Positions 4,545 through 32,250 of a DNA stretch of 34,042 bases are shown piece by piece. How positions within the stretch are numbered: position 1 is the first letter of the stretch; each line of letters begins with the position of its first letter. Made by a program: the position numbers and the translations under genes. This DNA comes from a virus. The notes beneath the pieces were generated by a model. It searched no databases. It saw only the letters and a list, made by a program, of their open reading frames with translations, and was not told where the DNA came from. The stretch is taken from the IMG/VR virus record IMGVR_UViG_3300037502_001594, positions 1 to 34,042 of that record, one strand, 5' to 3'.

Positions 4545-5495
4545 TTAGAAGCTAATGAAGCGCGGGCCGTATTCGTCGATGAGTCCGATCCCCGTCGTCC
4601 AGTTATGGATCCGCTGGGGTCGGTAGGAGAGTGCTTTTGAGTAGGGGTCGCCGATGAAGCCTGCGTTAAGCTCCCAGAAGGTTTCGCCATTATAGCTCCG
4701 ATAGTTAACCCCACCACGGTGAGAGTGACCGCACACGACGTTGCAGTTGTTAAAATCACGGTGTGCGCCCAGCTTCGAATAGTGGCCGTGGATGAACAGG
4801 ATTCCGTTGATGTAGAGTTCCTCTGTCGGGTCATGGATGGTTGTCACTCCTTCGAAAGTCATTCGGGATCGAATAGCCTGGGCGATCAGATGTTCTCCCT
4901 CTGGGCACTTCTCGACGATGCGCTTGAGGATCCTGGCGTCATGGTTGCCCATTAGCTGAAAGCATTTAGCCTTGGGCGCTACCTGCTGGAGCGTCTTCCA
5001 GAAGTCCTCGGCCATCTCCCTGGACAGATCATCCTCAGCCTTCGGCGTGTAGGTATTCAGCGACCTGGCAAACTTCGAGGCCGAATACTGGTCGGTCAGA
5101 TCACCCACCTGGACGATCACGTCCGGCTGTTCCTTCTGAGCGAAGGCGTAGACCATCGAGAGCGCGTTCAGATTTACGAAAGGCAGGTGCATGTCGCCCA
5201 CGACCATGATCTTCTCGGCGTGGTTAAGCCTGACGACGTTCCTGTGCTCCTGAGAGCAGACGATCTCCTTGATCTTCTCCGGATCGTCGATCGCCGGGAA
5301 TGGATCCTTTTTCTTCGGCTCTTCCTTTTCTTTCTCTACTAGGCCAGCCGCCCGGAGAGCGTTGTCCCAGGTCCCGAACAGGATCCCTACCGGGATGCGC
5401 GGAAAGATGGCCTGAAAGTCCGAGATCATTGGGACGCGGCCTAACTCGTGCGCCAGCTCTTTGAGCTTTACGACCACATAGTGCTTTTGATCCAT
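4545..5495 (-). CDS. Metallophosphoesterase with an N-terminal HNH-associated repeat
   Basis: Calcineurin-like phosphoesterase; hydrolyses phosphodiester or phosphomonoester bonds with two metal ions. All five motifs are seen in its 316 residues: GDMH (D101, H103), GDLTD (D132), GNHD (N184, H185), HGHY (H236, H238) and GHSH (H257, H259). Before the catalytic domain, residues 12-52 (LAHELGRVPMISDF... TWDNALRAAGL) look like the small DNA-binding repeat found beside HNH and homing nucleases, then a Lys/Glu/Pro linker. The combination suggests a nuclease or phosphatase brought to DNA; substrate not predictable. First gene of the leftward cassette, with GGGGGAA upstream of its ATG. It lies divergent to the methyltransferase fusion across a 165-base control region. 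Confidence 0.85.
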   Translation of the reverse strand: MDQKHYVVVKLKELAHELGRVPMISDFQAIFPRIPVGILFGTWDNALRAAGLVEKEKEEPKKKDPFPAIDDPEKIKEIVCSQEHRNVVRLNHAEKIMVVGDMHLPFVNLNALSMVYAFAQKEQPDVIVQVGDLTDQYSASKFARSLNTYTPKAEDDLSREMAEDFWKTLQQVAPKAKCFQLMGNHDARILKRIVEKCPEGEHLIAQAIRSRMTFEGVTTIHDPTEELYINGILFIHGHYSKLGAHRDFNNCNVVCGHSHRGGVNYRSYNGETFWELNAGFIGDPYSKALSYRPQRIHNWTTGIGLIDEYGPRFISF

Positions 5496-5616: not shown

Positions 5617-5647
5617 AGCCCCGGTGGGGCTAACTGGACCGTCCAGT
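5617..5647 (+). promoter_or_regulatory. Two tandem palindromes next to the ribosome binding site
   Basis: AGCCCC-GGT-GGGGCT (5617-5631) and ACTGGAC-C-GTCCAGT (5633-5647) stand one base apart, both perfect. The ribosome binding site GGAGG (5648-5652) begins right after the second. They could be operators for autoregulation or RNA hairpins controlling translation of the methyltransferase fusion. Confidence 0.55.
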
Positions 5648-5660
5648 GGAGGAACAGAGC

Positions 5661-6836
5661 ATGACCAACATTCCCGAGATCCATTGTCGATATGACCGGA
5701 TGATTCCCATCCATGAGCTGAAGGATCATCCGAAGAACCGGAACAAGCACTCCGACGAGCAGATCGAGCGTCTGGCGAAGCTGTACGAGTACCACGGGAT
5801 CAGGCACCCGATCATCGTATCCGAGCTCTCTGGCTGTATCGTGGCAGGCCACGGACGAAAGCTAGCAGGGAAGAAGGCAGGCTTCGATTCAATGCCTGTG
5901 GTGTTCCAAAAGTTCGCGGACGATACCGCAGAGTATGCGTTTATCCAAGCCGATAATGCGATCGCCGCTTGGTCCGAGCTCGACCTAGCCGGGATCAATG
6001 CGGACCTGCCAGAACTGGGCCCGGACTTTGATTTAGAGATGTTAGGCCTAAAAGACTTCACGCTGGATCTGTCGGAGAAGCTCGAGCCCGAGTGCGACGA
6101 AGACGAAGTGCCAGACGCCAGGCCAGAGCCGAAGGTAGTTCAAGGCGAGGTTTACATTCTCGGGAATCATCGCCTGATGTGCGGAGATTCTACTGCGATC
6201 ACCAATGTCGAGCGGCTGATGAACGGAGAGAAGGCAGACCTGGTTTATACGGATCCACCGTATGGAATTTCTTACAAGTCTCCATCTGGAAAAGGACTCA
6301 CCAACCGAGGTGATTACGCAATAATCAAAGGAGATGATAAGCCTTTTGATCCTTCATGTTTATTTTCATATTCAGAAAAGATTATTACTTGGGGAGCGAA
6401 TCATTACGCCAATCAACTTCCAAACTCTGCTTCTTGGTTGGTATGGGATAAACGAGATGGCGATGCCATAAACAACAACTCAGACTGTGAGCTTGCGTGG
6501 TGCAGTGATGGAGGATCTGCTAGATTGTTTCATCATAAATGGAATGGAATGATAAAAGCATCTGAGAAAAAAGAAAAAAGAGTTCATCCAACACAGAAAC
6601 CAATAGCTCTACACGAATGGGTTTTTGAGGTTTCAGAAGCAGAAAAAAACATTTTAGACCTATTTGGTGGCTCCGGATCAACGCTTATCGCCTGCGAAAA
6701 AACAGATCGAAAGTGCTTCATGATGGAACTTGATCCGCATTATTGCGGAGTCATCCTCGACAGATGGCAGAAGTTCACAGGCAAGAAGGCGCACCGGGAA
6801 GACGGAGTCGCCTGGGATGAGATCAGAGGTGCGTGA
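5661..6836 (+). CDS. ParB-like N-terminal domain fused to an N6/N4 DNA methyltransferase
   Basis: Methylates the exocyclic amino group of adenine (or cytosine) in DNA. Of 391 residues, 15-90 form a ParB/sulfiredoxin-like domain (LKDHPKNRNKH, then VAGHGRKLAGKKAG), a region of acidic linker follows, and the methyltransferase has DPPY at 198-201 (motif IV), the VHPTQKP segment at 308-314 and FGGSGS at 335-340 (motif I). Catalytic motif before SAM motif marks the beta class. Such ParB-methylase fusions often stand just before phage terminases. Bases 6265-6680, coding for the part from the catalytic motif to the SAM motif, are clearly AT-richer than both flanks, suggesting a recombined domain. Start chosen at the ATG with GGAGG eight bases upstream. 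Ends in a TGATG overlap with the small terminase gene. Confidence 0.88.
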   Translation: MTNIPEIHCRYDRMIPIHELKDHPKNRNKHSDEQIERLAKLYEYHGIRHPIIVSELSGCIVAGHGRKLAGKKAGFDSMPVVFQKFADDTAEYAFIQADNAIAAWSELDLAGINADLPELGPDFDLEMLGLKDFTLDLSEKLEPECDEDEVPDARPEPKVVQGEVYILGNHRLMCGDSTAITNVERLMNGEKADLVYTDPPYGISYKSPSGKGLTNRGDYAIIKGDDKPFDPSCLFSYSEKIITWGANHYANQLPNSASWLVWDKRDGDAINNNSDCELAWCSDGGSARLFHHKWNGMIKASEKKEKRVHPTQKPIALHEWVFEVSEAEKNILDLFGGSGSTLIACEKTDRKCFMMELDPHYCGVILDRWQKFTGKKAHREDGVAWDEIRGA

Positions 6837-30256: not shown

Positions 30257-30284
30257 ACGGCCCGACTCGCGAAAGTCAGGCCGT
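30257..30284 (+). terminator. Hairpin/attenuator in the initiator leader
   Basis: ACGGCC-C-GACT pairs with AGTC-A-GGCCGT around CGCGAA, followed by CTTT. The single mismatch on this strand is a G-U pair on the other, where TTTGCTTT follows. It could terminate late transcripts weakly in both directions or act as an attenuator. Confidence 0.5.
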
Positions 30285-30308
30285 CTTTGGCAATCGTGCC
30301 GGAGAGTA

Positions 30309-30358: not shown

Positions 30359-30376
30359 GCTTCAAGGGGGAACATC

Positions 30377-31132
30377 TTGAGCGACAGCGTCACTATTAAA
30401 TTCTGCAACTGGGAACAGTACAACAAGCGGGCGAAGGAGTATAAAAATCCGGTCTGGTTTTCCTTCCAGAACGACTTCGCCACAAATCGGAACTTCTACG
30501 ATTTCACAGATCAGCAAAGGCTGATTTTCATTTATCTGCTTTGCGAAGCGAGCCAGCAAAACAAGGCCGGATCGTTGACCATCGAGGTCGAGCATTTCTG
30601 CTACCATACCAGGCAAAAGCCGAAGGACGTTCACGCAACGATTCAAAAGCTGATGCAAAAACAAATACTTGAAGCTCGGGATCGTGACGGGATCGTGACG
30701 GGATCGTGTGGGGATCGTGATCTGGCCGTTACAGAACAGAACAGAACAGGACAGGACAGGACAGAACAGGACAGAACACTATATGGCGCGATCGAAAAAA
30801 ATTCGATCTCGCACCCCGAGGCCTACGGCGCTGTGGTTCATGTCTTCGAGTCTCGTGATGTGACGCCTGAGATCACGGCCACCTGGGTCGATGCCTTCCC
30901 AGATCCTGGCTGGGTTGTCGCAGAGGTTCACAAGGCTCTAGCTTGGGAGGGGGCTAACTCCACTCGGAAGAAAAAAAACTTCGGGCGGTTCATGACGAAC
31001 TGGCTGACAAGAGGCTGGGATCGGCGTATCACCACAGCCCCGACTAAGAACTACGCAGAACGACGCTACGAGGCGAATAAGAACGCGCTCGAGATTGCAC
31101 TGGCGAGGGAGGCCGCGAAAAATGAAAAGTGA
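30377..31132 (+). CDS. Replication initiator (lambda O-like) with internal origin
   Basis: Binds the phage origin and starts replication. The 251-residue protein begins at TTG, chosen because AAGGGGG lies just upstream and a typical SVTIKFCNWEQYNKR start follows. Residues 1-98 look like a winged-helix DNA-binding domain (DQQRLIFIYLLCEASQ, then HATIQKLMQKQIL). Residues 99-140 are encoded by tandem DNA repeats and read as a charged linker (DRDGIVTG, QNRTGQDRTEQ). The C-terminal part has NFGRFMTNWLTRGWDRR, a motif common in phage replication proteins. As in lambda O, the repeats in the centre probably are the binding sites. The next gene, overlapping by 11 bases, is a loader candidate. Confidence 0.78.
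   Translation: MSDSVTIKFCNWEQYNKRAKEYKNPVWFSFQNDFATNRNFYDFTDQQRLIFIYLLCEASQQNKAGSLTIEVEHFCYHTRQKPKDVHATIQKLMQKQILEARDRDGIVTGSCGDRDLAVTEQNRTGQDRTEQDRTLYGAIEKNSISHPEAYGAVVHVFESRDVTPEITATWVDAFPDPGWVVAEVHKALAWEGANSTRKKKNFGRFMTNWLTRGWDRRITTAPTKNYAERRYEANKNALEIALAREAAKNEK
30678..30721 (+). repeat. Four 11-bp iterons, candidate replication origin
   Basis: GGGATCGTGAC, GGGATCGTGAC, GGGATCGTGTG and GGGATCGTGAT stand head to tail with an 11-bp period, one helical turn, so a protein would bind on one face. They lie inside the initiator gene, as in lambdoid origins. Each contains GATC. Confidence 0.75.
30731..30775 (+). repeat. Nine tandem pentamers (ACAGR)
   Basis: ACAGA or ACAGG is repeated nine times without a break, followed by ACACT. 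All purine-rich on one strand except the C. It is in frame as codons for Gln, Asn, Arg, Thr, Gly and Asp. Together with the iterons and the downstream A-rich inverted repeat it makes a composite origin structure. Confidence 0.75.
30790..30808. promoter_or_regulatory. A-rich inverted repeat beside the origin
   Basis: GATCGAA and TTCGATC flank AAAAA. Right after the pentamer repeats, it is the AT-rich part where strands could open or a second protein could bind. Confidence 0.5.
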
Positions 31133-31697
31133 AATCATGAAACTGATTTTTGGCCTTGGCGAATACTACGACAAGAAGCTCACCCCGGAGCAACTCGAGA
31201 TGTACTCGCAGGATCTCGCCCAACTCTCGCCAGAGGAACTCCGCTTTGCGATTCTCAAGTATCGGTCTGACGGAAGGAACGAACGCTTTCCGCTTCCTGC
31301 AAAGCTCCTCGAGATCGTAAAGCCTACAGAGACCGAGCTTGATCTCGGCCAGGAAGTCGCCTCGAAGGTGATCGGCGCGGTTTCCAAGTTCGGTTCATAC
31401 CGGGGCGCTGAGGCCAGGACATGGATCGGAGAGATCGGCTGGGAATGTGTTGCGCGAATGGGTGGCTGGCCCACGATCTGCGCCGAGCTCACCGAGGAAA
31501 ATAAGGGCACGTTCTTCGCCCAGATCAGGGGCCTGGCTCAGACGCTGAACAAGCAATCGAAAGCCGGAACGCTCGACCAGCCTCGAGACTTTGCGCCAGC
31601 GATCGAGGCGAATCAGATCCGCGAGCTTATAAGCGATTTCTCGAAAAAAACAGCTACGCCTATTAGTTCTAATAATACGCAAGAATCAGACTTCTGA
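31122..31697 (+). CDS. Helicase loader-like replication protein (lambda P/G39P type candidate)
   Basis: A 191-residue protein directly downstream of the initiator, overlapping its end. The N-terminal 65 residues (LIFGLGEYYDKKLTPEQLEM, then AQLSPEELRFAILKYRSD and FPLPAKLLEIVKP) match the helical domain of phage helicase loaders that bind host or phage DnaB. The C-terminal half has W, G and E clusters (ARTWIGEIGWECVARMGGWP) and ends in a Ser/Asn-rich tail. The ATG at 31122 has GGGAGG nine bases upstream, better than an earlier in-frame ATG. Role inferred from domain and order. Confidence 0.7.
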   Translation: MKSEIMKLIFGLGEYYDKKLTPEQLEMYSQDLAQLSPEELRFAILKYRSDGRNERFPLPAKLLEIVKPTETELDLGQEVASKVIGAVSKFGSYRGAEARTWIGEIGWECVARMGGWPTICAELTEENKGTFFAQIRGLAQTLNKQSKAGTLDQPRDFAPAIEANQIRELISDFSKKTATPISSNNTQESDF

Positions 31698-31950: not shown

Positions 31951-32250
31951 ATGGAAAACAAAATCAAGCTAAGCGGTAAAGCGCTGTACGTGAAAGAGCG
32001 CACAGCAAAGACCGGGATGATCATCACGAACTTCATGGTCGAGTGTCAGAACGCAGAGGGTTACACCTCGAAGATTCCGGTGACTGGCTTTGGCATCAAC
32101 ACGAAGATCGTCGACGGAGATCAAGTCACTGTCTTCGGAAGCCTTCGGAACGCCATGATCAAGAATCCAGATCCAGCCGCGAAAAAGGATTTTAGGCTCG
32201 AGGCGATCGCTGACCGGATCGACGTCCTGACTGCGGACGTTCCTTTTTAA
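31951..32250 (+). CDS. OB-fold SSB-like protein
   Basis: A 99-residue protein that probably binds single-stranded DNA. Five strands can be traced (KIKLSGKALYVKE, GMIITNFMVECQNA, SKIPVTGFGI, GDQVTVFGSLR, FRLEAIADRIDVL), the OB-fold order of SSB proteins. It ends in TADVPF, close to the acidic-Pro-Phe tip by which SSBs recruit partner proteins. The frame is open earlier, but the ATG at 31951 with AAAGGA upstream gives the natural SSB-like start. It is shorter than typical SSB (about 100-180) and lacks a long linker. Works with the initiator and the ERF annealing protein. Confidence 0.65.
   Translation: MENKIKLSGKALYVKERTAKTGMIITNFMVECQNAEGYTSKIPVTGFGINTKIVDGDQVTVFGSLRNAMIKNPDPAAKKDFRLEAIADRIDVLTADVPF

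Follow-up and report, generated by a model that had tools for sequence, protein, structure and literature searches.

A probable replication origin of iterons and T-free pentamers inside a phage initiator gene

The repeat block at positions 30677-30808 of the window (the whole stretch of DNA analysed, 34,042 nt, positions 1 to 34,042 of IMG/VR record IMGVR_UViG_3300037502_001594) is very probably a theta-type origin of replication that lies within the gene encoding its initiator. This reading draws on the observed anatomy of the block, its conservation, constraint at the DNA level, an iteron sequence tied to the N-terminal domain (N-domain) of the initiator, and a pentamer that recurs in other initiators. 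An earlier sequence-only reading had placed an origin inside this gene. Its proposal was supported by the replication gene family, by the block being the only strong tandem-repeat site of the genome, by a layout like that of lambda gene O and by the retention of this layout in homologues. The features of the region are given below.

30364-30370, + strand: ribosome-binding site AAGGGGG, before the TTG at 30377
30377-31132, + strand: initiator / DnaD-like helicase-loader gene, 251 aa, TTG start, profile match to phrog_186
30377-30676 (aa 1-100), + strand: N-terminal domain, predicted winged-helix-like, proposed iteron reader (AlphaFold2 pLDDT 64-90 per block)
30677-30687, + strand: iteron 1, CGGGATCGTGA
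30688-30698, + strand: iteron 2, CGGGATCGTGA
30699-30709, + strand: iteron 3, CGGGATCGTGT
30710-30720, + strand: iteron 4, GGGGATCGTGA
30731-30779, + strand: T-free run with nine ACAGR pentamers at 30731-30775, proposed opening / helicase-loading tract
30790-30808, no strand assigned: inverted repeat GATCGAA-AAAAA-TTCGATC (7-5-7)
30815-31129 (aa 147-251), + strand: C-terminal helical domain, proposed helicase-loading domain (AlphaFold2 and homologue comparison)
31122-31697, + strand: next gene, phrog_10105, unknown function, overlapping the initiator stop
31951-32250, + strand: SSB-like gene of the same module (PF00436, E 0.0026, below the Pfam cut-off)

The four iterons abut with a period of exactly 11, and all of them carry the core GGGATCGTG without mismatch. 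The earlier description of four 11-bp direct repeats was correct for the period (30677-30720) but not for the whole unit, since the last two bases vary in units 3 and 4. The units are direct, without dyad, and are thus distinct from 18-19 bp dyads, while their spacing near one helical turn is that of helically phased iterons. The nine ACAGR pentamers that had been reported were found in the order ACAGA x3, ACAGG x3, ACAGA, ACAGG, ACAGA, followed by ACA. The 49-nt T-free run that holds them exceeds all others on the window's + strand (34 kb). Together, the block spans 40-57% of the gene, and the reading frame (30377-31132) is uninterrupted across it.

No tandem repeat in the window scored higher than the iterons and pentamers (TRF 74 and 82; next best 42). 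The lag-11 match was 30/33 and the lag-5 match 39/43, compared to maxima of 23 and 26 when the window was resampled 200 times under a first-order Markov model. The inverted repeat was also present as described, but taken alone it is not beyond chance, with 22 such repeats in the window against 20.7 expected. Its support is comparative. The pentamers have 48% G+C and the stretch 30731-30790 is mildly unstable (78th percentile of the window); an AT-rich unwinding element at the tract was ruled out on these two grounds. The GC skew of the contig showed no turning point at 30677-30808 and was uninformative.

The gene product was examined by profile and structure comparison. The TTG start at 30377 is backed by the homologues L003 and L004, and a homologue has ATG at the same place. 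PHROG 186 (DnaD-like helicase loader) was the sole PHROG below 0.001 (E 7.7e-7), matching residues 44-162 of a 281-aa reading, so that the N-domain and linker are covered and the C-terminal domain (C-domain) lies outside. No family was matched in a Pfam search of the protein, none of the O-like PHROG or Pfam families matched it, and tblastn of the whole protein against 50,697 phage records gave no match. From its profile match, the initiator is a distant relative of the DnaD-like helicase loaders and not of lambda O. Because no O-like family was matched, the label 'O-like' given previously is true of function and layout only.

An AlphaFold2 model built with 16 homologues predicted a folded N-domain (1-102), a disordered linker (105-143) and a helical C-domain (147-248); its mean pLDDT was 67, so its fine detail is untrustworthy. 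The origin block corresponds to codons 101-144 and coincides with the predicted linker, which in this model places it between two folded domains. Comparison with the PDB by sequence and by fold gave weak winged-helix matches (best fold E 1.0), which were not taken as evidence of family. For the C-domain, compared with a view to the DnaD-type helicase-loading fold, helices were predicted and no PDB match reached significance.

In the same genome, genes for an Erf-type annealing protein and an exonuclease were found. Just 5' of the initiator gene, at 30258-30290, a terminator-like hairpin is followed by TCTTT; the homologue L002 keeps its stem with changed bases. Two fused gene products were also observed in the window. 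A calcineurin-like phosphoesterase (4545-5495, - strand) carries an N-terminal HNH_repeat (homing-endonuclease-associated repeat) in an unusual fusion, and a ParB-like domain is fused to a DNA methyltransferase at 5646-6836.

The coincidence of block and linker raises the alternative that the repeats are a feature of the protein only, namely a linker of low complexity and hydrophilic character (TEQNRTGQDRT) that joins two domains and tolerates repeats. The block does encode a predicted disordered linker, and the cyclic peptide encoded by a pentamer repeat is the same in every frame, so that such a tract would be tolerated there. However, the periodicities were destroyed when the same protein was recoded: across 500 recodings with phage codon usage, matches reached at most 23/33 at lag 11 and 34/43 at lag 5. 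The 11-bp unit is also not a whole number of codons. Together with the scarcity of differences between relatives and the protein-preserving shuffles presented below, these data make the linker explanation unlikely.

A second alternative is that the protein binds the repeats as an operator to repress its own operon, with replication starting elsewhere. Iteron binding by initiators, as in iteron plasmids, is often also autoregulatory, but here the block lies ~300 bp inside the gene and no second repeat-rich origin candidate was found in the window. An operator in place of an origin is thus very improbable, and an operator role would in any case be compatible with the origin role.

Comparison with related phages, which had been suggested as a check, showed the layout to be retained in homologues, with the iteron sequence tracking the N-domain. 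The L002 protein is 95% identical to that of the window and those of L003 and L004 are 54% identical, and all three loci retain iterons, pentamers and inverted repeat. In L003 the inverted-repeat arms are GAGCGAA / TTCGCTC, a two-sided compensatory change that keeps the pairing. Between the window and L002, the origin block has 2 differences against 9.2 expected (p 0.006), and an unbroken identity of 122 nt extends from the last iteron to beyond the inverted repeat. A scarcity of differences in the block was also seen for L003 versus L004 (p 0.03). Such constraint between relatives argues against the linker explanation.

Three natural domain swaps were found. L047 and the window share 73% identity in the N-domain and the iteron core GGATCGT, while their C-domains could not be aligned (z 0.5); L047 has a different hairpin at the position of the window's inverted repeat. 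Similarly, L221 and L003 have N-domains that are 83% identical and the iteron CGGCAGGATC in common, with C-domains that could not be aligned. Conversely, L003 and the window are closer in the C-domain (62%) than in the N-domain (44%), and the iteron differs, the L003-type units being given as CGGCAGGATCC against the window's CGGGATCGTGA. From these three comparisons, the iteron sequence tracks the N-domain and the C-domain is freely exchanged. This pairing is as expected if the N-domain reads the iterons. The ACARR pentamers were kept in all swap comparisons (window, L003, L047 and L221).

Origins inside initiator genes have been established experimentally for lambda and SPP1 (PMC5043065, PMC7466680, PMC6316719). 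In lambda, O binding opens a neighbouring 40-bp A+T-rich region and P brings the helicase (PMC5043065, PMC7466680). In the sequence of lambda gene O, the iterons lie at 39-48% of the gene, followed by a T-poor tract and then an inverted repeat, and the window resembles it in this order and in the location near the middle of the initiator gene (PMC7466680, PMC5043065). It differs in three respects. The lambda iterons are 18-19 bp dyads with starts 20-24 bp apart, compared to abutting 11-bp direct units, a difference that had been correctly anticipated; the lambda tract is A+T rich, compared to T-free pentamers of 48% G+C; and the lambda initiator belongs to the O family, to which the window's protein does not. 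SPP1 oriL in gene 38 is alike in having direct repeats, bound by gene 38's own product, and an adjoining unwinding element inside the initiator gene; the description used for this comparison gives the element as AT-rich and mentions no pentamer array (PMC6316719). Origins of iteron plasmids likewise have helically phased direct repeats beside an opening region (PMC5043065), whereas the window's block is intragenic and without an A+T-rich opening region.

By analogy with these systems, the best reading is that the block would work as a lambda-type intragenic origin outside the lambda O family, using the T-free pentamer tract for opening or loading. Binding, opening, helicase loading and direction are proposed as follows. 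The N-terminal winged-helix domain would bind the four 11-bp iterons. Since the units abut at about one helical turn, they would all lie on one face of the helix and the DNA would be bent or wrapped. Strain from this binding, together with negative supercoiling by transcription of the gene, may open the adjoining pentamer tract, and either the initiator or a host factor would prevent the T-free ACAGR strand from re-pairing. The C-terminal domain would then bring the host replicative helicase to the opened tract, with the inverted repeat serving as a putative mark of the far end of the opened region. With 48% G+C and mild instability, the tract is better accounted for by a rule of sequence on its T-free strand than by low stability, and we infer that opening follows such a rule. 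The DnaA-trio of bacterial oriC also consists of short strand-specific units beside initiator boxes, read by DnaA. The window's tract is alike in this respect, with a period of 5 in place of 3.

The pentamer block had been considered different from that of lambda. This was correct in that the lambda tract is A+T rich, but the block is not peculiar to this phage and is seen again in the initiators of many others. When IMG/VR was scanned for (ACARR)5, at least 120 stretches were found, which form neither a complete nor a random sample. Among the matches listed, the tract was at 40-60% of the gene in 39/58 same-strand viral ORFs (150-460 aa, near-duplicates removed), compared to 2/17 for the control pentamer CRARG. 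The PHROG names of the 43 mid-gene proteins among these matches were replication initiation protein, DnaD-like helicase loader, primosomal protein and O-like. As the shared tract could help those PHROG matches, later sets were picked by N-domain only.

The dozens of mid-gene (ACARR)n initiators among the matches listed fell into at least 8 N-domain and ~32 C-domain clusters by BLAST single linkage, where E was computed on a tiny database and linking was therefore generous. Each family has its own iterons of period 11-12 upstream of the tract. Among the matches listed, the mean autocorrelation of the 80 bp before the tract in 42 distinct initiators had peaks at lags 11 and 22 (z 5.3 and 4.7, respectively). 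Within 60 bp downstream of the tract, 31% of these initiators had a hairpin whose arms were 7 bp or longer, compared to 4.2% of control stretches.

Pentamer tracts expand and contract, and they could be neutral microsatellites arising by replication slippage at an unconstrained spot. Consistent with this, the (ACARR)6 matches listed for bacterial genome contigs were scattered microsatellites. None of these, however, fell in the 40-60% bins, in contrast to the position of the viral tracts (39/58, with 2/17 for CRARG), and family-specific iterons lie upstream of the viral tracts. The unit is also confined to ACNRR among 64 degenerate pentamers, as detailed below, and a neutral origin is accordingly very unlikely. 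Separately, long (ACARR)n microsatellites that were not mid-gene in initiators were observed in bacterial genome contigs L235-L354, largely MAGs.

Three N-domain-only searches gave 109 distinct full-length initiators, in which tract frequencies are biased upward because the N-domains used as seeds were for the most part those of loci with the tract. Iterons of period 12 were evident mid-gene, with a lag-12 match of 0.419 compared to ~0.25-0.30 near the ends. Three tandem ACARR units were found mid-gene in 23/109 and elsewhere in 1; for ACNRR x3 the numbers were 57/109 and 2. ACNRR ranked first of the 64 degenerate pentamers; ACARR had been set beforehand, while the wider ACNRR was formulated after viewing these genes. 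Shuffling the composition of the mid-region gave ~0.5 genes with ACNRR x3, and shuffling synonymous codons with the protein kept gave 15 (maximum 21), against the 57 observed. Since protein-preserving shuffles fall this far short, selection acts on the DNA, which again speaks against the linker explanation. The families A8 and A9 are unlike in unit, with ACAGA, ACCAG and 6-mers in the one and ACTAA/ACGAA in the other.

That many otherwise unrelated phages have the pentamer at this position of their initiator genes points to an origin-opening element which they share and which has not been described so far. The literature search found no description of the pentamer, its peptide or an intragenic pentamer origin; subscription papers were mostly outside it, and a prior description is possible. 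The recurrence of the pentamer across unrelated initiators and the evidence for selection on DNA go beyond the sequence-only reading. A strict ACARR was rejected as the universal unit: several named phages found by protein similarity have iterons followed by other short T-poor units (ATACAG, AAGACT, ACTAA, GATAAA). The stretch with fewest T was also rejected as a general marker, as it was often off mid-gene in unselected initiators; ACNRR periodicity performed better.

More tentatively, and at somewhat less than an even chance, ACNRR arrays may serve generally to open origins in tailed phages whose initiators are of the winged-helix kind. They would form a strand-specific, T-poor code of period 5, comparable to the DnaA-trio, that follows family-specific iterons, is independent of AT-richness and, after strand separation, is read by a factor conserved between hosts (helicase, primase, SSB or a shared loader feature), with the tract also acting as the joint for C-domain swaps. 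The possibility that primase reads the tract through its start sites (CTG / TTA in the complementary strand) was considered and set aside as speculative, since ACAAR units are not explained by it.

Annotation of phage origins is rare, and searches for the opening element normally look for AT-rich DNA. Should the pentamer tract be this element, the origins of many uncultivated phages could be found from sequence alone, GC-rich genomes included, and it would become testable which factor reads ACNRR on single-stranded DNA. The pairs of iteron and N-domain are natural swaps ready for specificity tests, and a linker doubling as an origin would explain the recombination of initiator genes at that place.

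Two further observations concern methylation-related sequences. GATC occurs 393 times in the window against ~131 expected from base composition, and is present in every iteron and both inverted-repeat arms (7 in the block), with similar densities elsewhere in the window. The same phage has methyltransferase-like genes at 22-597 and 5646-6836, and origin control may have a Dam-like component. In a family of DNA-methyltransferase-like phage genes from nine other loci (L020, L042, L055, L061, L072, L075, L085, L089 and L112), (ACAAG)n was found near the start in 7, 8, 9 or 11 copies with varying reading-frame length, possibly reflecting phase variation by pentamer slippage.
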